From Pseudomonadota bacterium (lineage in GTDB: Bacteria > Pseudomonadota > Gammaproteobacteria > Burkholderiales > Thiobacillaceae), in NCBI GenBank assembly GCA_030684775.1, contig JAUXXW010000175.1:1-43572 (forward strand): 43,572 nucleotides of DNA, given 5' to 3'. Shown here piece by piece: positions 12,650 to 42,608 of the stretch. Position 1 is the stretch's first letter, and every line of letters begins with the position of its first letter. The position numbers and the translations under genes were made by a program. A model generated the notes under the pieces. That model made no database searches, was not told the DNA's origin, and was given only the letters and a program-made list of their open reading frames with translations.

Positions 12650-13558
12650 TTACCCGCGCAGGTTGCGCAGGTGGTCGTGGTAACGGGCGCGGTAGAGCAG
12701 GCGGCGGTGTTCCGGGTGATCGGAGAAACCGGAGCGGGTGTGTGGGATGTTGTTGCAGATCACGCCCATGCCGGGTTGCAGGCCGAGGGTGAAGAGGCCG
12801 GGCGGGTCGCCGGCGAGGAGTTCTTCCAGCGCCCGTACCGCGGCCAGCGTGGCCGCGTTCTGTTTCCAGGCGATGCTCTTGGTGCGGGCGGTGTAGCGCA
12901 GGTGGAGGGTTGGAAACTGCTGTGGCCCGCTATCCACCAGGAAAGACGGGCCGGATTCGTCGGGGCGGGCCACGCCCAATTCATCGGTGCGCGCCGGGAT
13001 GGTCATGGCGTCTTCGGCCATCAGGGCGCGAATATGCATGGGGTCGGCATCGCGCAGGGCGATATAGGCGAGTTCGTGGTCGTACAGGTCGTTGATGCCG
13101 CCCTCGTCGGCGGCGCGCACACAATGCAGGGTCATCGCCCAGATGCGCCGTTCGGGCGGGTTGTAGTAGCCGTCGGTATGCCAGCGGATGGGTTTGTGGG
13201 TGTAGGGGATGAATTCACCGCGCTTCTGGCCGTCTTCATCGTGCGGGGTGAGGCTGGAAATGCCGTCCTCGTCCGCCAGCCAGTTGGCGTCCAGGTGGGT
13301 CAGACCGAATTGCGCAGCGAGTTGGCTGATTGATTCCTTGTCTTCGGTTTCGCCCAGATCGGTGGCGTAGATCGCCATGTTGGTCTTGGCGATCAGCCGC
13401 CAGATGGCCTGGTATTCGCTGTCGGAGAGATTGCGCGGGTCGCGCACCTTGACGATGAGGTCTTCGCCACGCGTCGGGTAATCCGCCAACTTGGCGGCGC
13501 GCCAGGCTTGGTAGCCGGCTTCGTTGTCGGGGTGAAAGGGGGAGTCGGCGGGGATCAT
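12650..13558 (-). CDS. TauD/TfdA-family 2-oxoglutarate-Fe(II) dioxygenase
   Basis: This is a non-haem iron dioxygenase of the TauD clan, 302 residues. The iron triad is visible as H127-x-D129 (RWHTDGYYNP) and H273 (NNIPHTRSGF). The arginine expected to hold 2-oxoglutarate lies in the following RRLLYRAR segment. The family includes taurine, alkylsulfate and trimethyllysine oxygenases, so a sulfonate or other organic substrate is possible, but the sequence does not settle it. It lies about 110 bp after the start of the diguanylate cyclase gene and 70 bp before the dsr-linked minus-strand genes, with a long inverted repeat in that gap. Whether it belongs to the sulfur cluster is unclear. Confidence 0.85.
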   Translation of the reverse strand: MIPADSPFHPDNEAGYQAWRAAKLADYPTRGEDLIVKVRDPRNLSDSEYQAIWRLIAKTNMAIYATDLGETEDKESISQLAAQFGLTHLDANWLADEDGISSLTPHDEDGQKRGEFIPYTHKPIRWHTDGYYNPPERRIWAMTLHCVRAADEGGINDLYDHELAYIALRDADPMHIRALMAEDAMTIPARTDELGVARPDESGPSFLVDSGPQQFPTLHLRYTARTKSIAWKQNAATLAAVRALEELLAGDPPGLFTLGLQPGMGVICNNIPHTRSGFSDHPEHRRLLYRARYHDHLRNLRG

Positions 13559-13569
13559 GGCGGGTTACT

Positions 13570-13630
13570 GTAGGAGCGGACCGTGTCCGCGATTGCTACC
13601 GTGTTTATCGCGGACTAGGTCCGCTCCTAC
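13570..13630. repeat. GTAGGAGCGGACC inverted repeat
   Basis: Arms of about 23 nt start GTAGGAGCGGACC and end GGTCCGCTCCTAC, with a 15-nt loop and few mismatches. The outer arm overlaps the end of the 191-residue unknown gene: the CTA at 13627-13629 is its TAG stop on the minus strand. The repeat may also end transcription of the divergent sulfur operon. GTAGGAGC-type repeats are widespread in Proteobacteria. Confidence 0.7.
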
Positions 13631-14202
13631 GGGCATGGATAAAACCCGTCCATGTTCTTCTTCACCATGCCCAGCATCTCGGGCATTTCGATATCCATGA
13701 TCTGATCCTGGATCCAGGTCTGGTCGGTTTGCTCCATGACTTCGCGGATTTGCAGCGAGAGGAAGCGCAACGCGGGGAAACCGGGTTTGTCATCCGGGAA
13801 GTCGAAAGACGAGTAGTCGCCCATGCGCCGATTGGTCAGGTCGATGAATCCGGCCTGGTAGTCGTAATCCGGGTCTTTCTCACCACCGGTGGTTTCGATG
13901 ATGTTCTCTTCCATGATCTCGGCCAGACGCACGCCCACCGCGCTGACCACGTCCTGTCGCAGTTCGTCGTCCATGCGGTCGAAGGCCAGGCGATCGACGT
14001 AGTGGACCAGGAAGCAGGCCATTTCTCCGATGATGCGAAAACCGCGCTGCGGCGTAATGATGTCGAAATCGGCTTTGGACAGATTGTCGATGGTGCGATC
14101 ACACAGGCGCCAGATGGTGGAGGCGAGGACGGTGGCGACTTCGGAAGGATCGCGTTGTTCGCCTTCCTTCTTGAACCAGACGGTTTTGACTCTGAGTGCC
14201 AA
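13627..14202 (-). CDS. Unknown protein, translationally coupled to sseA
   Basis: I do not recognise a family. The start is set at TTG 14202, two bases after the sseA stop, because a GGAG sits about 8 bp upstream inside the sseA end; the product is then 191 residues. The open frame extends further upstream, but that part would overlap sseA by a different reading. The protein is acidic, has no signal peptide or membrane helix, and looks largely alpha-helical. Residues 20-110 contain an ATVLASTIWRLCDRTIDNL helix, and the C-terminal part has several Met and Asp residues. Tight coupling to a sulfurtransferase next to dsr suggests a role in sulfur metabolism. The stop codon comes from a repeat arm, so the C-terminus may have been altered. 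Confidence 0.7.
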   Translation of the reverse strand: MALRVKTVWFKKEGEQRDPSEVATVLASTIWRLCDRTIDNLSKADFDIITPQRGFRIIGEMACFLVHYVDRLAFDRMDDELRQDVVSAVGVRLAEIMEENIIETTGGEKDPDYDYQAGFIDLTNRRMGDYSSFDFPDDKPGFPALRFLSLQIREVMEQTDQTWIQDQIMDIEMPEMLGMVKKNMDGFYPCP

Positions 14203-14204
14203 GG

Positions 14205-15053
14205 CTATTCTCCGGTGGCGATGGGCCTGGCGGGATCGCGTATCCATTCGCTCCAGGAGCCGGGGTAGAGGCGCGACCCGGCCAAGCCAGCCACTTCCAT
14301 CGCCAGCAGGTTGTGGCAGGCGGTGACGCCGGAACCGCAGGAATGGATGACCTGCCAGGGCGCGCGGCCTTTCAGCAGGGCCTGGTAGTTTTCGCGCAAC
14401 GCCTCGGGCGGCAGGAAGGTGCCGTCGATGTCGAGGTTCTCGTCGAATGGCCAGTTGATGGAGCCGGGAATGTGCCCGGCGACCGGGTCGAGCGGCTCGA
14501 ATTCGCCGCTGAAGCGACGGTCGGGGCGCGCGTCGATGATTAGCGCGTCACCAGTTTGCGAGGCGCGCAGCACCTCGTCGGCGGCAACGATCTGGCTATG
14601 TTCCGGCAGGCAGGCGCAGTTGCCTTTGCGTGGTAACGGCAGTTCGGCGGTCAGTGGCCGCTTTTCCTTGCGCCACTTGGGTATGCCGCCGTCAAGCAGG
14701 GCGGCACCCGGGTGGCCGAGCCAACGTAGCATCCACCACAGGCGCACGGCCATGGCGCCATAGCTGTCGTCATACACGACAACCTGCTTGTTGACGCCGA
14801 CGCCCCAGGCACAAAGTCGTTCCGCCAGTATCTGGACATCGGGCAATGGGTGGCGGCCGGTGCTGTCGGTAATCGGCGCGGACATGTCTTCGTCGAGATG
14901 AATGTAGCGCGCGCCGGGAATGTGTTCTTTGAGATAGGCCTGACGACCGGCTTCCGGGTCGGTCAGCGTAAAGCGGCAGTCGAAGACGATCCAGTCTGGA
15001 TCATCCAGGTGAGCGGCCAGGTCTTCGGTGGTAACCAGTGTGTTGATGAACAT
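14205..15053 (-). CDS. sseA: 3-mercaptopyruvate sulfurtransferase (tandem rhodanese)
   Basis: This is a two-domain rhodanese of 282 residues. Such enzymes move sulfane sulfur from 3-mercaptopyruvate or thiosulfate to an acceptor through a cysteine persulfide. The inactive N-terminal rhodanese domain covers about residues 5-130 (VFDCRFTL, HIPGARYIHLDEDM, VVVYDDSYG). The C-terminal domain carries IDARPDRRFSGE and the active-site loop CGSGVTA with Cys239. The CGSGVTA loop is typical of mercaptopyruvate sulfurtransferases rather than classical rhodanese (CRKGVTA). There is no signal peptide, so it should be cytoplasmic. Its position among dsr-linked genes suggests it feeds or drains persulfide in the DsrEFH/DsrC relay; that role is inferred. 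Confidence 0.9.
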   Translation of the reverse strand: MFINTLVTTEDLAAHLDDPDWIVFDCRFTLTDPEAGRQAYLKEHIPGARYIHLDEDMSAPITDSTGRHPLPDVQILAERLCAWGVGVNKQVVVYDDSYGAMAVRLWWMLRWLGHPGAALLDGGIPKWRKEKRPLTAELPLPRKGNCACLPEHSQIVAADEVLRASQTGDALIIDARPDRRFSGEFEPLDPVAGHIPGSINWPFDENLDIDGTFLPPEALRENYQALLKGRAPWQVIHSCGSGVTACHNLLAMEVAGLAGSRLYPGSWSEWIRDPARPIATGE

Positions 15054-15147: not shown

Positions 15148-15480
15148 TCAGTAACCGCCCTTGCCGAAAGGCTTGGTCAGTCCGGCCACCTTGGCGGACT
15201 GGCGGTTGGGTTGCAGGGGAAACAGTTCATACAGTACTTTTTTCCAGTCGACGCTGTCGTCCTCGTCGTTGAGGTCGGCGACCATGTTGCGGAAATTGGG
15301 GGTGTGGCCCTCATCCTGGTATTTGCGTCGCATGAAATTGATGACCTGCCAGTGCGTGTCGGTCAGGGTGATGTTTTCAGCTTCAGCGATCACGGGAACA
15401 ATTTCTTCGCTGAAGTTGGCTTCCAGCAGGAAACCATCGTCATCCACCTCGAGTTCTTCGCCGTTCAGTACATAGCCCAC
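15148..15480 (-). CDS. rspA: DsrC/TusE-family protein lacking all cysteines (RspA-like)
   Basis: The 110-residue product aligns along its length with DsrC, whose canonical copy is at 20352. Shared features are a VLNGEELEVDDDGFL start, TDTHWQVINFMRRKY, the LYELFPLQP segment and a KVAGLTKP tail. Canonical DsrC ends with two redox cysteines in a flexible arm (ACKIAGLPKPTGC). Here the arm ends SAKVAGLTKPFGKGGY, so both are missing, and there is no cysteine elsewhere. It therefore cannot carry a persulfide or trisulfide. Cysteine-less DsrC homologues have been named RspA and proposed to be regulatory. The start is GTG 15480 with AGGAG 7 bp upstream. It lies 45 bp after the Cas6-like gene. Confidence 0.88.
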   Translation of the reverse strand: MGYVLNGEELEVDDDGFLLEANFSEEIVPVIAEAENITLTDTHWQVINFMRRKYQDEGHTPNFRNMVADLNDEDDSVDWKKVLYELFPLQPNRQSAKVAGLTKPFGKGGY

Positions 15481-15525
15481 AGTTTTCTCCTATTTCACGA
15501 GTTAAAAAATATGGCCGTCCGGTGT

Positions 15526-16179
15526 TCAGACGGTCGAAACTTCCTTGATCGATTTGTGCGGTATGAAGATGCCGCAGCCCCAAGCGCGGTGCAGCCCCAG
15601 ACCCTGTTCCTGCACGGCCAGCGAATGCGCCAGACTGAGGTCATGCAACATCAACGTGTGGCCGCTGATCTCCCCATCAGGGGTGCGCATTTTACGTTGC
15701 AACCCCGGTATCAGTCCGCACTGGATGCCCATTTCGTCGAGCTTTCTCCGCATCTCAAGCAAAATCGCCGCTTCGTCGGCGTTGCCCAGCGTCACGAAAT
15801 GGGAATACAGCGTGCCAAATGGCGTCAGGTTTTTCTCTTTCAAGGGGCCGATAACCAGATTGCCGGCGCCCGGGTCGATGCGCTGGCCGACCAGTGCACG
15901 CGCGGCTTCCAGGCGTTCTACCGGAAGGCGCAATACCAGTTTTACCCGCCGATTGATCACCAGATTGTCATTGCGCCCACTCGGTGCGCCATGCACTGGA
16001 TGTATGCCAGCCTCAGGTGTATCAGCAAGCCAGGGCAGATGCCGCAGCAGTTCAGCGTAAAGCGCGGGGCCGTGGTCCGCGGGGATTTCCCCGCCTGACA
16101 AGTCGTAGTGGAGGTCCAGCACTTTGGGCGTGAACTTCATGTCTTTCACGGCGTCCCATTCCGGGTTGTACATGCGCAT
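15526..16179 (-). CDS. Cas6/Cmx6-family RNA-binding protein without CRISPR locus
   Basis: The 217-residue product matches the pattern of Cas6/Cmx6 proteins known from type I-MYXAN CRISPR systems. Near the N-terminus are FTPKVLDLHYDLSG and IPADHGPALYAELLRHLPWL (His36 is a candidate catalytic residue). Then come AGIHPVHGAPSG, a VKLVLRLP strand, GNLVIG, a TLYSHFVTLG segment and a C-terminal glycine-rich loop GLGLHRAWGCGIFIPHKS. Cas6 proteins bind and usually cut CRISPR repeat RNA. No repeats, spacers or other cas genes are present. It lies 4 bp after the 80-residue gene and 45 bp before rspA, so it appears cotranscribed with dsr-linked genes. GAGGAC precedes the ATG at 16179. An RNA target within sulfur-gene transcripts is a hypothesis. 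Confidence 0.85.
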   Translation of the reverse strand: MRMYNPEWDAVKDMKFTPKVLDLHYDLSGGEIPADHGPALYAELLRHLPWLADTPEAGIHPVHGAPSGRNDNLVINRRVKLVLRLPVERLEAARALVGQRIDPGAGNLVIGPLKEKNLTPFGTLYSHFVTLGNADEAAILLEMRRKLDEMGIQCGLIPGLQRKMRTPDGEISGHTLMLHDLSLAHSLAVQEQGLGLHRAWGCGIFIPHKSIKEVSTV

Positions 16180-16183
16180 GGGT

Positions 16184-16426
16184 TCAGTCCTCGGCGGGCG
16201 GGGGAGGGGGGTCGGCGGCCAGCGGCGTGGCCCACTTCAACATTTCTTCCGCCCAGTATTTGGCGGTTGTGGGATCGACGTCGAAAATAGTGAAACGCGC
16301 GCCGCGCTCACGAATCCGCAGGCGTAGCATCGGCGTTCCACCTGCTTCATAACGTGCCTCCTGCAACTCGATTTCCTGGTTGCCGAAGGGATTGCGGAAC
16401 TTGGTGAGAGAGGTGGTTTGATCCAT
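16184..16426 (-). CDS. Small unknown protein heading the dsr-divergent operon
   Basis: This 80-residue protein has no family I can name with confidence. It starts MDQTTSLTKFRNPFGNQ, has a charged central part (LRLRIRERGARFTIFDVDP) that looks like beta strands, then an amphipathic helix (AKYWAEEMLKWA) and a proline-rich tail (PPPPPAED). It has no cysteines, signal peptide or membrane helix. It is the first gene of the minus-strand set transcribed away from dsrA, 4 bp before the Cas6-like gene. No Shine-Dalgarno sequence precedes the ATG at 16426. A -10-like TATACT lies only 8 bases upstream, which would give an almost leaderless transcript. Confidence 0.75.
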   Translation of the reverse strand: MDQTTSLTKFRNPFGNQEIELQEARYEAGGTPMLRLRIRERGARFTIFDVDPTTAKYWAEEMLKWATPLAADPPPPPAED

Positions 16427-16504: not shown

Positions 16505-16546
16505 GGTAGTACTCAACCTACCCGATCGGGTAGGTTGAGTACTACC
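16505..16546. promoter_or_regulatory. Perfect 42-bp palindrome in the dsrA upstream region
   Basis: The left half, starting GGTAGTACTCAACC, is followed directly by its exact reverse complement ending GGTTGAGTACTACC, with no spacer (centre between 16525 and 16526). It lies 158 bp before dsrA in the divergent intergenic region. In RNA it would form a stem of about 19 bp with a 4-base loop. It has no T-tract, so it is unlikely to be a simple terminator. Possible roles are an operator for a dimeric regulator, a cruciform, an mRNA leader hairpin, or a protein- or Cas6-bound RNA structure. Confidence 0.75.
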
Positions 16547-16602: not shown

Positions 16603-16608
16603 TAATAT
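16603..16608 (+). promoter_or_regulatory. Candidate -10 box for dsrA
   Basis: TAATAT about 97 bp before dsrA resembles a sigma-70 -10 element. The region 17 bp upstream has no good -35 hexamer, so an activator would be expected. If used, transcription would begin downstream of the 42-bp palindrome, making the palindrome a DNA site rather than part of the mRNA leader. Weak evidence. Confidence 0.25.
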
Positions 16609-16704
16609 GTATTCACTCGTCCCGTACGAGCGAACTGCCAACGGGCAAGTGCGGTAAGTTTGTGACGACATGGTGTTGTTCAAGACTTCAAGGAGAAAAG
16701 ACAG

Positions 16705-18006
16705 ATGGCTAAGCAAATGATTGATACGCCGAACCTGGACGAACTCGAGACTGGCCCGTGGCCCTCGTTCGTTACGGGTCTGAAGCGCCTGGCTAAAGAC
16801 AACGACATGATGGTCGACCTGATGGGCCAGCTGGAGACTTCCTACCAGACGCGTTTCGGCTATTGGAAAGGCGGTACCGTCGGTGTGGTGGGTTACGGTG
16901 GAGGCGTGATTCCGCGCTTTACCGAACTGAAGGACGAGAACCACAAGCCTCTGTTCCCCGAGGCGGCCGAGTTCCATACCCTGCGCATCATGCCGCCCGC
17001 CGGCATGCATTACTCCTCCGACCTGTTGCGCCAGATGTCCGACGCTTGGCTGGAAACCGGTGGCTCCGGCCTGATCGCTTTCCACGGCCAATCCGGCGAC
17101 ATCATGCTGCAAGGCATTAAGACCAACGACGTGCAGCGTGCCTTCGACAAGTTCAATGAAATGGGCTTCGACCTCGGTGGTGCCGGCCCCGCATTGCGCA
17201 CCTCGATGTCCTGTGTCGGTGCCGCGCGTTGCGAAATGTCCTGTTTCGATGAGGCTCGCGCTTTGCGCATCGTCATCAACAACAACCTGGACGACATGCA
17301 CCGCCCGTCGCTGCCGTACAAGTTCAAGTTCAAGTTCTCCGGTTGCCCGAACGACTGCATGAACTCCATTCAGCGTTCCGACATGGCTACCATCGGAACC
17401 TGGCGCGACAGCATCCGTGCCGATGAAAAGTTGGCGCGTGACTGGTATGCCGCTCACAGCATGGAAGATGCCATCAATATGGTCGTCAACCACTGCCCGA
17501 CCAAGGCCATCCAGCTCAAGAAAAATGACGGCGCGGTCGCCGCTGAAGGTGTTACCAAGGTGGTCTTGTCCGACGATCATTGTTTGGAAATCGACAACCA
17601 CAACTGCGTGCGCTGCATGCATTGCCTGAACGTCATGCCTGGCGCGCTTCTGCCCGGCAAAGACAAGGGCGTCACCATTCTGGTCGGCGGCAAGAGTGTG
17701 CTGAAGATCGGTGCCACCATGGGCACCGTGGTGATTCCGTTCATGAAGCTTGAGTCCGACGAAGACTTCGAGCGGCTGAACGATTTGTCCCGCTCCATGC
17801 TCGACTTCTTCGCCGAAAACGCGCTGGAGCATGAGCGCACCGGCGAGATGATCGAACGTATCGGTCTGGTCAACTTCCTGGAAGGCATTGAGCTGGAGGT
17901 TGATCCCAACATGATCAGCTCGCCGCGCTCCAATCCTTATGCTCGCATGGATGGTTGGGACGAAGAGGCTGCAAAGTGGTTCGAGCGCAAGCAGGCTGCC
18001 GCCTGA
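16705..18006 (+). CDS. dsrA: Reverse dissimilatory sulfite reductase alpha subunit
   Basis: DsrA and DsrB form the alpha2-beta2 sirohaem-amide enzyme that in sulfur oxidisers releases sulfite from DsrC-bound sulfur. The 433-residue product has the coupled sirohaem/[4Fe-4S] cysteine motifs CVGAARC (about residue 170) and SGCPNDC (about 214). An inserted ferredoxin domain follows, with CPTKAI near residue 265 and CVRCMHC near 305, and then the C-terminal part of the sulfite reductase fold. AAGGAG lies about 9 bp before the ATG. Length matches DsrA. The oxidative direction is inferred from the following dsrEFH and dsrL, which are absent from most sulfate reducers. Confidence 0.98.
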   Translation: MAKQMIDTPNLDELETGPWPSFVTGLKRLAKDNDMMVDLMGQLETSYQTRFGYWKGGTVGVVGYGGGVIPRFTELKDENHKPLFPEAAEFHTLRIMPPAGMHYSSDLLRQMSDAWLETGGSGLIAFHGQSGDIMLQGIKTNDVQRAFDKFNEMGFDLGGAGPALRTSMSCVGAARCEMSCFDEARALRIVINNNLDDMHRPSLPYKFKFKFSGCPNDCMNSIQRSDMATIGTWRDSIRADEKLARDWYAAHSMEDAINMVVNHCPTKAIQLKKNDGAVAAEGVTKVVLSDDHCLEIDNHNCVRCMHCLNVMPGALLPGKDKGVTILVGGKSVLKIGATMGTVVIPFMKLESDEDFERLNDLSRSMLDFFAENALEHERTGEMIERIGLVNFLEGIELEVDPNMISSPRSNPYARMDGWDEEAAKWFERKQAAA

Positions 18007-20687: not shown

Positions 20688-20705
20688 TCAATTTCGGTTG
20701 ATCCC

Positions 20706-20726
20706 CGGCGGGTTTCGGCCCGCTGG
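20706..20726 (+). other. Hairpin between dsrC and dsrM
   Basis: A short stem, GCGGG with CCCGC, around a TTTCGG loop, extended by weaker pairs, lies in the 111-bp dsrC-dsrM gap. There is no T-tract. It could stabilise the upstream dsrC mRNA, which is often needed in larger amounts than the membrane subunits; this is inference. Confidence 0.4.
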
Positions 20727-20798
20727 TCTCAAGATTTCTGTTCGTGTTCCGGATTCCCCGGGACGTAATGGGTTGTTCTGCCTGAAGCAGAGGAACGG

Positions 20799-37839: not shown

Positions 37840-40032
37840 GTGTCACGACTGACCGACTTGATTGCCCAAGCCAAAGCCAAAGACCCCCGGATGGGGGTGG
37901 ACCTGGACCGGGAGTTCAAGGTGTTGTCCTCGCGTTTGCCCTTCGGCCTGAACTTCGAGCGCCACCGACCGGAGGTTGTTGAATTACCGCAGCGGCCCAT
38001 TCGCAAGGGCGACAAGGTGCGCGTGCTGCCGCCCAGGGGATCGATCGGCAAGGGCGACTCGCGGCTCTGGCAGATCATGGCCATCCACCGGGCGAAAGGC
38101 GGCAAGGTGGCGGAATTGGCCTTGTTGGGCGCGGAAGCCACGAAGACGCAAACCGCGCAGTCGCAGACCGTGGCGCTGGCCGATCTGGTGGTGGTGGCCG
38201 AATTCCGCGACACCATCTATCCGGGCCTGGTCAGCACCGGCAAGGTGCAGCGGGGCGGCGACAAGCAGTTTCATACCGTCATCAATGGCGAGAACTACCA
38301 CGTCCTGAAAGCCCTCACCTACACCCATCGCGGCAAGGTGGACGCCATCTACATCGACCCGCCCTACAACACGGGCGCGAAGGACTGGAAATACAACAAC
38401 GATTACGTCGAGGGCGATGATCTGTATCGGCACAGCAAGTGGCTGGCGATGATGGAGCGTCGATTATTGGTGGCGAAGGAATTGCTCAATCCAGCGGATT
38501 CGGTGCTGATCGTCACTATTGATGAAAAGGAATATCTGCGACTGGGGTTGTTGCTGGAGCAGTTGTTTCTAGATGCCACCATTCAGATGGTGTCATCGCA
38601 AGTCAATCCAAAGGGGGTCTCACGAGGGGGGAGTTTCAGAAGATCGGATGAATACCTGTTTTTTGTGATGTTTGGTGCATCTCGGCCAATTCGTATGCCG
38701 TTGTCTAATGAGTGGTCAACATCAACGCAAGCTGACAAAGACGAGCCACCAGAAGGTGTTGAAGTCAGTGTCAATCCTGACTGGACTTCGATGATGCGTC
38801 GTGGTTCTGAGGCGCACCGATCTGATCGACCATCAATGTTCTACCCGATCTATGCTGATCCGCATACTAGAAGAATTGTCGAGATTGGCGAGCCGTTGCC
38901 AGATGGCGAGCATGTCGCGCCTCATCGAGACGGTTCAGTCACAATCCTGCCAATTCGAACAGACGGATCGGAGGGTAGATGGCAAATAGGCGCAACCGAA
39001 CTTGGTGCGCGAATGAAACAAGGGCGTATTCGACTTGGGCGACCGACCTCTTATGGTTTTGTCGTCAATTACTTGCCAGATGGGGCATATGCCGAAGTAA
39101 AGTCTGATAAGTTTGTAATCCAAGGGTATGCGCCTGATGGCTCATTGATTGCTGCGGGAGCTGTTGGTGATTTGTCTCGTATTGCGCCGACACAATGGAA
39201 AATTGCTTCTCACAATGCATCCGAAAATGGCTCTACTTTGCTCGCATCTTATTTGCCAAAACGAAAATTCCCATATCCCAAATCGCTTTATGCGGTAGAG
39301 GATGCTTTGCGCTTCTTCGTCGCTAATAAACCGGATGCCGTTGTTTTAGATTTCTTTAGTGGTTCCGGCACCACAGCCCACGCTGTAATGCGTCTGAATC
39401 GCCAAGACGGCGGTCGCCGCCAATGTATTTCCGTCACCAATAACGAAGTCGCCGCCGACGAACAAAAATCGCTACGAGAACAATGGCTACGCCCCGGCGA
39501 CCCCGAATGGGAAAAACACGGCATCTGCGACTACATCACCAAGCCCCGCGTCAAAGCCGCCATCACCGGCAAAACCCCGGACGGCGAACCCATCAAGGGT
39601 GATTACAAATTCACCGACGAATTCCCGATGGCCGAGGGTTTCGATGAAAACGCCGAATTCTTCACCCTGACTTATGAAACCCCGGTTTCCGTCAACCACA
39701 ACCGGGCCTTTGCCCGCATCGCGCCCTTGCTGTGGCTGCGCGCGGGCAGTCGGGGACGGCGCATCGATCATCTGCCGGAGGCCGGCTGGGAAGTGGTGGA
39801 GGCTTACGGGTTGCTGGTCAATGTGGATTGCTCCACGCCTTTCATCACGGCCATCGGCCAGGCCCAGGGGCTGGGCGTGGCTTTCATCGTCACCGACGAT
39901 GATCGCCGTTTTCAATCCATCGCGCGGCAACTGCCGGCAGGGGTGGAGCCGGTACGGCTGTATGAGTCGTACTTGACCAATTTCAGCTTCGCCAACGGCG
40001 AGGACTGGGGCGATACGGAGAATCAGGGATGA
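37840..40032 (+). CDS. Type III-like restriction-modification DNA methyltransferase (Mod)
   Basis: This is an adenine- or cytosine-N DNA methyltransferase of the beta class (catalytic motif before SAM motif). The 730-residue product has IYIDPPYNTG near residue 170 and DFFSGSGTTAHAVMRLN near residue 503, with a long central region between them that should hold target recognition. The GTG start at 37840 has GGAG 5 bp upstream. From about 38460 to 39480 (residues about 208-547) the DNA is markedly richer in A+T and codon use differs from the flanks, pointing to a swapped target-recognition region. The gene overlaps the helicase/nuclease gene by 4 bp (ATGA). Confidence 0.9.
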   Translation: MSRLTDLIAQAKAKDPRMGVDLDREFKVLSSRLPFGLNFERHRPEVVELPQRPIRKGDKVRVLPPRGSIGKGDSRLWQIMAIHRAKGGKVAELALLGAEATKTQTAQSQTVALADLVVVAEFRDTIYPGLVSTGKVQRGGDKQFHTVINGENYHVLKALTYTHRGKVDAIYIDPPYNTGAKDWKYNNDYVEGDDLYRHSKWLAMMERRLLVAKELLNPADSVLIVTIDEKEYLRLGLLLEQLFLDATIQMVSSQVNPKGVSRGGSFRRSDEYLFFVMFGASRPIRMPLSNEWSTSTQADKDEPPEGVEVSVNPDWTSMMRRGSEAHRSDRPSMFYPIYADPHTRRIVEIGEPLPDGEHVAPHRDGSVTILPIRTDGSEGRWQIGATELGARMKQGRIRLGRPTSYGFVVNYLPDGAYAEVKSDKFVIQGYAPDGSLIAAGAVGDLSRIAPTQWKIASHNASENGSTLLASYLPKRKFPYPKSLYAVEDALRFFVANKPDAVVLDFFSGSGTTAHAVMRLNRQDGGRRQCISVTNNEVAADEQKSLREQWLRPGDPEWEKHGICDYITKPRVKAAITGKTPDGEPIKGDYKFTDEFPMAEGFDENAEFFTLTYETPVSVNHNRAFARIAPLLWLRAGSRGRRIDHLPEAGWEVVEAYGLLVNVDCSTPFITAIGQAQGLGVAFIVTDDDRRFQSIARQLPAGVEPVRLYESYLTNFSFANGEDWGDTENQG

Positions 40033-42608
40033 AATTCACGCTGAAGGACTATCAGGCGGATGCGGTGCGCGACGCCTTGGCGAACTTGAAGAAGGGCCGC
40101 CGGTATTGGCATGGCGAGGGGGACAGGAGCGCGTTTTCCTTGACCGCCGTGACCGGCGCGGGCAAGACGGTGATGGCGGCGGCGGCCTTCGAGGCGCTGT
40201 TTCATGGCGATGACGAATTCAACTTCGATGCCGATCCCGGCGCGGTGGTGATCTGGTTCAGCGACGACCCTTCGCTGAACGAGCAGACCCGCTGGCGATT
40301 GGATGAAGCCAGCGACCGCATCAGAAGCAAAACGGATCTGGTGGTGGTGGAGCACCCTTTCGTGTGGCGCAAGTTCGAGGCCGGGAAAATTTACTTTCTT
40401 AATACCCAGAAGCTCGGCAAGAAAAGCCTATTGGTGCGCGGCTTTGAGGGCGAAGACGATCTGGTGTCACAAATGCGCCCAGATACGCAGCCTTACACAC
40501 TGTGGGACACGATCCGCAACACCATCGAAGACCCGGCCTTGACCCTGTATCTGGTGCTGGATGAGGCGCACCGGGGCATGGGCAACCCGAACAAGGCAGC
40601 GGAAAGCGCCAAGGACACCATCGTTCAGCGGCTCATCAATGGTGTCAGCGGCGTGCCGGGGATTCCTGTGGTGTGGGGAATTTCCGCCACTGTTGATCGC
40701 TTCAACAAGGCGATGGAAGGGGCGCAGAAGCGCATCACCCTGCCGAATGTGGTGGTGGATTCGGCCAAGGTGCAGGAATCCGGCCTGATCAAGGACACCA
40801 TCATTCTGGACATCCCCGATGAAGTGGGGGACTTCGATACCGTGCTGGTGCGCCGCGCCACGGACAAACTGAAGGAATCCACCGCCGCCTGGGCCGAATA
40901 CGCGAAACAACAGGGTGACCCGCGCATCGTGCTGCCCTTGATGGTGTTGCAAGTTCCCAATACGCCCGACCCGAACGACATTGGCCGCGCCCTGGATACG
41001 ATCTACCAGCAATGGCCGGATTTACCTGGCGGCAGCGTGGCGCATGTGTTTGGCGATCACACGACCCAGCGGTTCGGCAATCGCAACGTTCCCCATATCT
41101 CGCCGGAGCGGGTGCAGGAATCGAACTGGGTGCGTGTACTGATCGCCAAGGACGCCATCAGCACGGGCTGGGACTGCCCTCGCGCCGAGGTGATGGTGTC
41201 GTTCCGGGCGGCGGTGGACCGCACCCACATCACTCAATTGTTGGGCCGCATGGTGCGGTCGCCCTTGGCGCGCCGCATCCCCGGCGATGACCGGCTCAAC
41301 TCGGTGGAATGCCTGTTGCCCAAGTTCGATGTCAAGACGGTGACGCAGGTTGTCGATGCGTTGATGAAGGGGGACGACGGTTCCGCCCCGCCCAGCGGGC
41401 GCGTGCTCGTCAACCCGGTGGAGATGAAGCCGAACCCCGCCGCTTCGCCGTCGGTATGGGAGAAATTCGAGGCCTTGCCTTCGCAAACCCGCCCGCAACG
41501 CGGGGCCAAACCGGCCCGGCGCTTGACCGCCTTGGCGCATGAACTGACGTGGGACGGCATTCTTGAGGGGGCGGGCAAGCGGGCGCACGAGGCGATGCAT
41601 GCCGTGCTGGATGCGGCGCAGGCCCGTTTCAAGGAACAAATCGAAGCCAAGCGCAAGGCGGTGCTGACAGTGGACGGCAAGACAGTCGTGGCCGACATGA
41701 AAAGCAAGACCAAGAGCTTCGATCAGTTTCTGGAAGATGCCGACATGGCGGTGATCGATGACGCTTACCGCCGCGCCGCCCGCATCTTCAGCCCCGATAT
41801 TTCCCGCACCTATGTCGATGCTCTGGCTTACCGGAATGCCGACCCGGAGGATGACGACGAGTTTGAAGAGGCGCTGGTCGATGGGCGGGTGACTGTGGCC
41901 GGGCTGGGTTTGGTGACGGAAGTGCAGCCCTACTTTGATGCCGAGGCGGACAAGTTGGCCAAGGCGTGGTTGGTGGAATACAACCCGGCCATCAAGAGGC
42001 TGTCCCACGACCGGCAGGAGGCTTATCGCCAAGTCAGGGAAATGAGTACCGAACCGCAGGATGTGGATTTGGTGAAACCGGCGGCGCGCTTTGAACCGAC
42101 GAAGGCGCGTGAGCATGAGGTTGAAACGGCGATACCCACCTACAAGAGCCACCTGCTTTGCGATGCGCACGGCCATTACCCGGCGGCACTGAATGCCTGG
42201 GAAGTAAAGGTGGTGGAAACCGAAATGAAGCGGGAAGGCTTTGCATTCTGGTATCGCAATCCGCAACAGCCGGGCCAATCATCGCTCGGCATCGCTTACC
42301 TTTCTGGTGAGCAGTACGGCATTGTTCGCCCGGACTTTGTTTTCTTTGCCATGCAAGCGGATGGAACGGTCGTGGCCGATCTGGTTGACCCGCATGGCCT
42401 CCATCTGGCCGATGCATTGCCCAAATTACAGGGGCTGGCGTTGTATGCGGAGAAACATGCATCGGTTTACCACCGGATGGAATCCGTGGCGGAGGCAAAG
42501 GGGAAACTGCGAGTGCTGGATTTGACCAGCGAGGCTGTCCGTAAAGGCATTGCTGATGCGACGGATGCGGCGAGTCTCTTTGCCGGGGGACTGGCGAGGG
42601 ATTATTGA
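40029..42608 (+). CDS. Type III-like restriction subunit, DEAD/DEAH helicase (Res)
   Basis: This is the superfamily 2 helicase/translocase partner of Mod. The 859-residue product has an N-terminal LKDYQADAVRDAL Q-like segment, Walker A TAVTGAGKT (residues about 38-46), DEAH box in LVLDEAHRGMG (about 177), motif III GISATVDRF and a C-terminal helicase motif (STGWDCPRAEVMVSF, then RTHITQLLGRMVR). Near residue 767 is an RPDFVFF segment and then VVADLVDPHG. That resembles a restriction endonuclease core, but the usual (D/E)xK is not evident, so nuclease activity is uncertain. Coupled to mod by the ATGA overlap. Confidence 0.88.
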   Translation: MKFTLKDYQADAVRDALANLKKGRRYWHGEGDRSAFSLTAVTGAGKTVMAAAAFEALFHGDDEFNFDADPGAVVIWFSDDPSLNEQTRWRLDEASDRIRSKTDLVVVEHPFVWRKFEAGKIYFLNTQKLGKKSLLVRGFEGEDDLVSQMRPDTQPYTLWDTIRNTIEDPALTLYLVLDEAHRGMGNPNKAAESAKDTIVQRLINGVSGVPGIPVVWGISATVDRFNKAMEGAQKRITLPNVVVDSAKVQESGLIKDTIILDIPDEVGDFDTVLVRRATDKLKESTAAWAEYAKQQGDPRIVLPLMVLQVPNTPDPNDIGRALDTIYQQWPDLPGGSVAHVFGDHTTQRFGNRNVPHISPERVQESNWVRVLIAKDAISTGWDCPRAEVMVSFRAAVDRTHITQLLGRMVRSPLARRIPGDDRLNSVECLLPKFDVKTVTQVVDALMKGDDGSAPPSGRVLVNPVEMKPNPAASPSVWEKFEALPSQTRPQRGAKPARRLTALAHELTWDGILEGAGKRAHEAMHAVLDAAQARFKEQIEAKRKAVLTVDGKTVVADMKSKTKSFDQFLEDADMAVIDDAYRRAARIFSPDISRTYVDALAYRNADPEDDDEFEEALVDGRVTVAGLGLVTEVQPYFDAEADKLAKAWLVEYNPAIKRLSHDRQEAYRQVREMSTEPQDVDLVKPAARFEPTKAREHEVETAIPTYKSHLLCDAHGHYPAALNAWEVKVVETEMKREGFAFWYRNPQQPGQSSLGIAYLSGEQYGIVRPDFVFFAMQADGTVVADLVDPHGLHLADALPKLQGLALYAEKHASVYHRMESVAEAKGKLRVLDLTSEAVRKGIADATDAASLFAGGLARDY

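Follow-up and report, generated by a model that had tools for sequence, protein, structure and literature searches.

The window, i.e., the whole stretch of 43,572 nucleotides analysed here, carries at 15526..16179 on the minus strand the gene for a 217-aa Cas6-family protein that belongs to a clade linked to dsr. Cas6 is the enzyme that matures CRISPR RNA. The genome comparisons presented below show that the dsr-linked Cas6-like protein stands independent of CRISPR, and we read it as a domesticated Cas6, not as an orphan processor of crRNA. We see an even chance that the fuller reading is right, in which the captured Cas6 would be an RNA-binding protein and likely a post-transcriptional regulator of dsr, acting with DUF6967 and a DsrC-like partner.

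The open reading frame has an ATG start and occupies exactly 15526-16179 on the minus strand, and both motifs quoted in the initial annotation, which had called the product a Cas6/Cmx6-type protein, are present. For the window protein, the Pfam profile PF09559 matches residues 22-210 with E=3e-52 (177.8 bits, with a cut-off of 26.7), the NCBIfam profile TIGR02807 (cas6_cmx6) yields 149.4 bits with a cut-off of 98.85, and the PADLOC Cas6 models match it as well. By these three libraries it is a full-length member of the Cas6 family, and the earlier identification holds. The NCBI model names it "type I-MYXAN CRISPR-associated protein Cas6/Cmx6". Measured against eight relatives, the gene presents a dN/dS of 0.09-0.28, i.e., it is under purifying selection, and it evolves faster than dsrA. 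Given these ratios and a constant position beside dsrA wherever relatives have the gene, the reading frame is more than a chance one. The AlphaFold2 model of the protein has a mean pLDDT of 90. Its best fold match in the PDB is the Cas6 of the type I-B CAST Cascade (8fcu_B, TM 0.83, rmsd 1.7), and ranks 1-32 are all Cas6, Cse3 or Cascade entries; the predicted fold is a Cas6 fold.

The gene is closely tied to dsrA, the start of the dsr run, which was identified as an open reading frame at 16705..18006 on the plus strand by the search for dsrA. In a sample of 200 genomes of the order, the Cas6-like gene is found in 36 genomes (21 of 108 genera) and dsrA in 40 (24 of 108 genera). All 36 are among the 40 genomes with dsrA, and none of the 160 genomes without dsrA carries the Cas6-like gene. 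Fisher's test on this co-occurrence yields 1.4e-35, a value that overstates the association since genomes of one order are not independent; 13 families are involved. According to the coordinates in this sample, the two genes share a contig in all 36 cases and are close neighbours on opposite strands. When loci were inspected individually, dsrA was a neighbour of the Cas6-like gene, on the other strand, in 110 of 111 (30 of 30 loci, 79 of the 80 named loci, and locus L124), the sole exception among the named loci being L102, whose contig stops before dsrA. The named loci are the best 80 of 560 relatives in the named-genome scan, and in 79 of them dsrA is 501-1314 bp from the Cas6-like gene. The link to dsr, which the initial annotation had drawn from position, is therefore strongly supported by comparison. 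Its description of the gene as lying directly opposite dsrA needs amending: the strand is indeed the opposite one, but the 80-aa DUF6967 gene (16184-16426, minus strand) and a 278-bp intergenic region intervene.

Four of the 40 dsrA genomes lack the Cas6-like gene. Two of these are little informative: the G122 contig stops 275 bp from dsrA on its upstream side, and G145 has two dsr contigs, one broken off within dsrA and the other carrying dsrA alone. In the remaining two, G083 and G132, DUF6967 lies beside dsrA and the Cas6-like gene is absent. In a sample of 398 genomes of the phylum, the Cas6-like gene occurs in five, all of them dsrA genomes of the window's order, and it is absent from the five rDsr genomes outside the order. 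In those five, DUF6967 lies beside a TauD-like gene, and in the two that were scanned the next gene is siroheme synthase. The Cas6-like gene is not general to reverse-Dsr organisms and, given that dsr and DUF6967 occur without it in G083, G132 and the five genomes outside the order, the reverse-Dsr pathway can run without it. A tblastn match of two Cas6-like proteins in locus L180 (E 3.6e-4 and 0.002; a third protein gave 0.006) overlaps a histidine-biosynthesis gene and was taken as chance. Second copies of dsrA, apart from the main cluster, were seen at G088:C6, G167:C28, G062:C17, G182:C1:485871, G014:C13 and G145:C45.

A simple search for three exact 20-mers spaced 45-110 bp from one another found no repeat-spacer array in the window, nor any in the 80 named loci (L031-L110). 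A profile search was applied to 46 open reading frames chosen from the 129 of at least 100 aa in the window. One of them matches Cas6 models, one matches a "2OG, CAS-associated" model, and no other core cas model is present among the 25 of 38 matching families listed, the remaining 13 being weaker than about E 3e-9. Both results agree with the initial annotation, which had seen neither an array nor another cas gene in the window. It had left to a homologue search whether such proteins accompany dsr or are found mainly beside type I CRISPR arrays; the inspected homologues are neighbours of dsrA, and no array is seen at any of the 80 named loci.

It had also considered that the protein might process an array located elsewhere in this genome. 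Such arrays do exist, in a type I-C locus (G000:C48, locus L122), where Cas5c was found, and in a type III-B locus (G000:C77, locus L123), which has a Cas6 of its own (PF10040). Type I-C systems are without cas6 and leave the processing to Cas5, according to PMC3652601. An orphan Cas6 acting in trans on crRNA from distant arrays would be in keeping with these two systems and with the presence of Cas1 in 14 of the 36 Cas6-like genomes. It is nevertheless close to refuted, since the I-C system would rely on Cas5, the III-B locus is served by its own enzyme, none of the 160 dsr-less genomes of the order carries the Cas6-like protein, and 22 of the 36 genomes have neither Cas1 nor a Cas3 above the cut-off. 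For Cas3, the curated cut-off was passed in none of the 22 Cas1-less genomes; weaker matches are common in these genomes, as they are in every one of the 14 controls. Cas10 (PF22335) was discarded as a CRISPR marker, as it passes its cut-off in 6 of the 22 genomes but also in E. coli. The III-B locus was further seen to carry two different Cas1 genes and a Csx1/CARF gene.

The CRISPR comparison set consists of eight proteins of the type I-MYXAN Cas6/Cmx6 kind (TIGR02807, PF09559) encoded on cyanobacterial plasmids. They belong to one sequence family with the dsr-type proteins over the whole length and have the same glycine-rich C-terminal loop, yet in seven of the eight loci cas3, cas8 or cas5 adjoins the gene, whereas the dsr-type genes stand beside dsrA. 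In the tree, a single branch (support 100/97) parts the 111 dsr-type rows from the eight CRISPR members; several rows sit on long branches. The 111 rows amount to 103 distinct sequences, rows from two genome collections overlapping, and in the residue alignment the C-terminal columns are absent from one row. E136 is found in 111 of 111 dsr-type rows, with P at that position in eight of eight CRISPR members; K209 in 110 of 110 rows and in no CRISPR member (0/8); and R78 in 110 of 111 rows, compared with two of the eight. H208 is present in 108 of 110 rows, and PHK is a motif of the dsr side. The glycines of the C-terminal loop (193, 195, 201 and 203) are kept in all 110 rows with letters there, and these glycines and the basic residues R78, R84, R198 and K209 are retained in nearly all 111 rows. 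Judged by tree and alignment, the dsr-linked proteins are a clade marked by its own residues (E136 and PHK), across one branch from the type I-MYXAN proteins. One Cas6/Cmx6 relative, on Gloeobacter morelensis plasmid pGMOR1 (locus L132, 5974-6765), has no other cas gene among the neighbours listed and a PAPS-reductase-family gene two genes away.

The presumed catalytic residue, His36, is present in the window protein and in 74 of the 103 distinct dsr-type sequences, and is N, S or Y in the other 29; the proteins with Asn36 include those of Thiobacillus. Residues 35-36 read DH in seven of seven CRISPR members with a complete N-terminus, which makes His36 the likeliest catalytic histidine. His60, which aligns with His51 of 8fcj by hand count, was rejected for this role because the CRISPR members do not conserve it. 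The type I-B CAST Cascade Cas6 (8fcj, 8fcu), which works in an RNA-guided transposition complex, is the only PDB sequence-profile match (E 8.7e-34) besides being the nearest by fold, and in the sequence alignment 8fcj carries N where the window protein has His36. Loss of the histidine in part of the dsr clade need not mean loss of cleavage, given that the histidine-less Cas6 of Sulfolobus solfataricus still cleaves crRNA, as stated in PMC3652601; that enzyme likewise is without the canonical histidine but, unlike the dsr-type proteins, belongs to a CRISPR system. The Cas6-like protein may thus have retained RNA cutting.

The initial annotation had placed the gene in a minus-strand run with a DsrC paralogue and a sulfurtransferase, and this is confirmed. 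On the same strand after the Cas6-like gene follow the 110-aa DsrC paralogue (15148..15480), a rhodanese-type sulfurtransferase (14205..15053), conserved in 77 of 80 loci, a 206-aa protein without Pfam or NCBIfam match (13627..14247), conserved in 79 of 80, and a TauD-like dioxygenase (12650..13558), a frequent neighbour found in 63 of 80. The DsrC paralogue is a clear member of the DsrC/TusE family (PF04358; it also matches the TusE/DsrC/DsvC model), but it is without the C-terminal cysteines, which are mostly missing across the loci, and ends in a GKGGY tail seen in 20 of 20 aligned rows. No cysteine at all is present in 84 of 108 loci. The paralogue adjoins the Cas6-like gene in 108 of 110 loci; in two of the 80 named loci, L083 and L104, the match lies elsewhere in the cluster. 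DNA binding upstream of the dsr cluster has been reported for the DsrC of A. vinosum (PMC5944118). A literature search on RspA/DsrC/TusE returned nothing relevant.

The first gene of the divergent run, upstream of the Cas6-like gene on the same strand, encodes the 80-aa DUF6967 protein (PF22295 by profile match; 16184..16426), which the initial annotation had passed over, and dsrA starts 278 bp beyond on the other strand. DUF6967 accompanies the Cas6-like gene in 108 of 110 loci, with no match in L019 and L022, and in two of 108 loci (L025 and L029, of one genus) the two domains form one open reading frame. In locus L085 (1160-1378), the DUF6967 gene has an in-frame TAA, which could be a sequencing error or decay. 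The DUF6967 model (pLDDT 89.8) has four strands and a helix, and its nearest folds are PUR-alpha repeats, a weak match with a best E of 0.04; by sequence, the best PDB match of DUF6967 has E 0.37. PUR-alpha repeats are nucleic-acid binders. In the phylum sample, DUF6967 is found in exactly 10 of 398 genomes, namely those whose DsrA shares 62 percent identity or more with that of the window. It is absent from the 43 whose DsrA is further removed (45-56 percent) and from the rest of the sample. Hence, DUF6967 marks the sulfur-oxidising Dsr type and is a possible marker gene for the pathway. Among the papers searched, none names DUF6967.

The best candidate for an RNA ligand is a stem-loop in the dsrA leader (16610..16654, plus strand; main stem 16621-16625 with 16641-16645), and it is confined to part of the window's clade. 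It lies downstream of TAATAT (16603..16608, plus strand), a -10-like element of dsrA recognised by sequence conservation only, and presumably falls within the mRNA. In alignment A9, which has 33 matches (31 distinct) fitted to the stem-loop structure, 85.9% of cells pair, compared with at most 38.0% in slid versions, and the covariation score is 0.221, compared with 0.173 shuffled (0/500) and at most 0.111 slid. Two-sided cells number 12 versus 4.4 shuffled (0/500), although one slid version equals 12, and pairs with two-sided change number four, a value reached by 82 of 500 shuffles. For the main stem in the unfitted alignment A3, the score is 0.432 versus 0.286 shuffled (0/500) and at most 0.214 slid, with 10 two-sided cells versus 3.4 shuffled and at most seven slid. 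Alignment A1 is without L007, L020 and L022, and A2 to A8 are selections of loci. These values indicate that the putative structure is well supported in its pairing and moderately in its covariation.

A search with the stem-loop model took in 85 sources, among them 67 of the 80 named loci. The model matches dsrA leaders in 33 of the 85, namely 19 used to build it and 14 new near relatives. Beyond dsrA leaders, no match with E<0.05 was obtained in these sources, which include Cas6-less dsr loci and the genome's CRISPR loci, and the model misses L038, L039, L064 and L066-L068 of the wider window clade as well as all other clades. Among the 33 matches, His36 is present in the window and in all 32 fetched loci; of the other 49 rows, 25 have His at this position, 18 Asn and six Ser. 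As the matches form a single clade, this counts as weak evidence. A different stem-loop is seen in Thiobacillus leaders, at about -50 to -27; it is 97 percent paired with no two-sided changes. With Rfam at gathering thresholds, nothing matched in the window. A hairpin at the end of the Cas6-like gene (about 15513-15533) was rejected as a candidate, being not conserved between clades when 22 of 108 spacers were compared by eye.

The initial annotation had named as candidate targets several intergenic hairpins and a 42-bp palindrome, and neither proposal fared well. The dsr intergenic hairpins look wrong because they track the presence of the Cas6-like gene poorly. The palindrome is perfect and lies at 16505..16546, with the core ACCTACCC-N4-GGGTAGGT (16516-16535), which has one exact match in the genome. 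Of the six core pairs, four are invariant over 23 sequences, and two-sided change is seen in none. The outer arms differ and partly covary, with 15 two-sided cells versus 8.0 shuffled (0/500) and 12 in a slid version, a pattern that the correction of quasi-palindromes in DNA could produce as well. Upstream of dsrA, 45 of 106 loci, other genera included, have paired CCTACC half-sites, which stand in either orientation and mostly 6 bp apart (5-7), and at least one half-site occurs in 79 of 106, an arrangement that would suit a DNA-binding dimer. Aligned by eye, the palindrome is placed between the promoter-like elements of dsrA and DUF6967. It is probably a DNA operator between these divergent promoters, and its nearly invariant core and operator layout led us to set it aside as an RNA target, though it might also form an RNA hairpin.

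These observations can be joined in the following account. An ancestor of the betaproteobacteria that bear dsr would have captured, apparently once, a Cas6 of the type I-MYXAN/I-B kind, which became fixed next to dsrA with DUF6967 on one side and the cysteine-less DsrC on the other. Now apart from CRISPR, the protein would bind RNA in the service of the reverse-Dsr pathway. Its most likely role would be post-transcriptional regulation of dsr expression, in which it would bind a stem-loop together with DUF6967, in the window's clade perhaps that of the dsrA leader, and have the DsrC-like protein as sensor or partner. RNA binding is what we infer from the predicted fold, and the target, the regulatory role and any remaining RNA cutting are likewise inferred. 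A regulator of dsr mRNA fits best because the genes are divergent from dsrA with a common control region, a cysteine-less DsrC-like protein is a natural sensor or regulator, and the dsrA leader is structured. More tentatively, and with the chances clearly against it, the Cas6-like protein, the PUR-like DUF6967 and the cysteine-less DsrC might form an RNP switch that binds or cuts the 5' stem-loop of dsrA mRNA, coupling dsr expression to the sulfur state of the cell.

Other functions were weighed against this regulator. The Cas6 fold may have lost its RNA function altogether and serve as a protein scaffold, with a structural or assembly role alongside the Dsr proteins or the DsrC-like protein. 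The replacement of the presumed catalytic His36 in 29 of the 103 distinct sequences, the new invariant residues unseen in CRISPR members, and the constant partner genes together with the DUF6967 fusion all speak for a scaffold, which is possible but unlikely; the conserved basic residues and loop glycines are, however, what would be expected of an RNA binder. A doubtful alternative, somewhat less likely again, is an RNA factor of a sulfur relay, which with the DsrC/TusE-like protein would sense or deliver sulfur on RNA such as tRNA. DsrEFH and DsrC are homologous to the TusBCD-TusE relay of tRNA thiolation, and the match of the DsrC paralogue to the TusE/DsrC/DsvC model points the same way. 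Yet without a cysteine in 84 of 108 loci, and with its GKGGY tail, the DsrC-like neighbour cannot itself carry a persulfide there.

An endonuclease that trims hairpins between dsr genes, thereby setting subunit ratios, is very improbable. The dsrC-dsrM and dsrB-dsrE spacers do fold better than mononucleotide shuffles (median z -3.5 and -2.8), and three of seven loci without the Cas6-like gene (L126, L186 and L188) are also without hairpins in the spacers tested. However, the other four (L127, L129, L185 and L187) have hairpins of similar strength, the Cas6-bearing L124 has none in the spacers tested, and the sequences of the dsr hairpins differ widely. In the window, a stem-loop between dsrC and dsrM lies at 20688-20798; such stem-loops are common there, with and without the Cas6-like gene.

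A whole clade fixed beside the genes of a central energy pathway, present in 21 of the 108 genera sampled and kept in genomes where neither Cas1 nor Cas3 was found, would clearly exemplify the conversion of a Cas protein to a metabolic role. It points to RNA-level control of the reverse-Dsr pathway and suggests that energy metabolism took over an RNA-binding component of immunity. No paper linking Cas6/Cmx6 to dsr was found in the literature search, which, with most subscription papers outside its reach, is not proof of absence. For annotation, the name of the NCBI model may make many genomes look like holders of CRISPR remnants, as one scan gave 560 related stretches, of which the best 80 were inspected. 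Elsewhere in the window, one open reading frame matches a type III methyltransferase (E 2e-299) and another matches a type III restriction enzyme (E 3e-9); these are presumably the two large reading frames at about 37840-42605.
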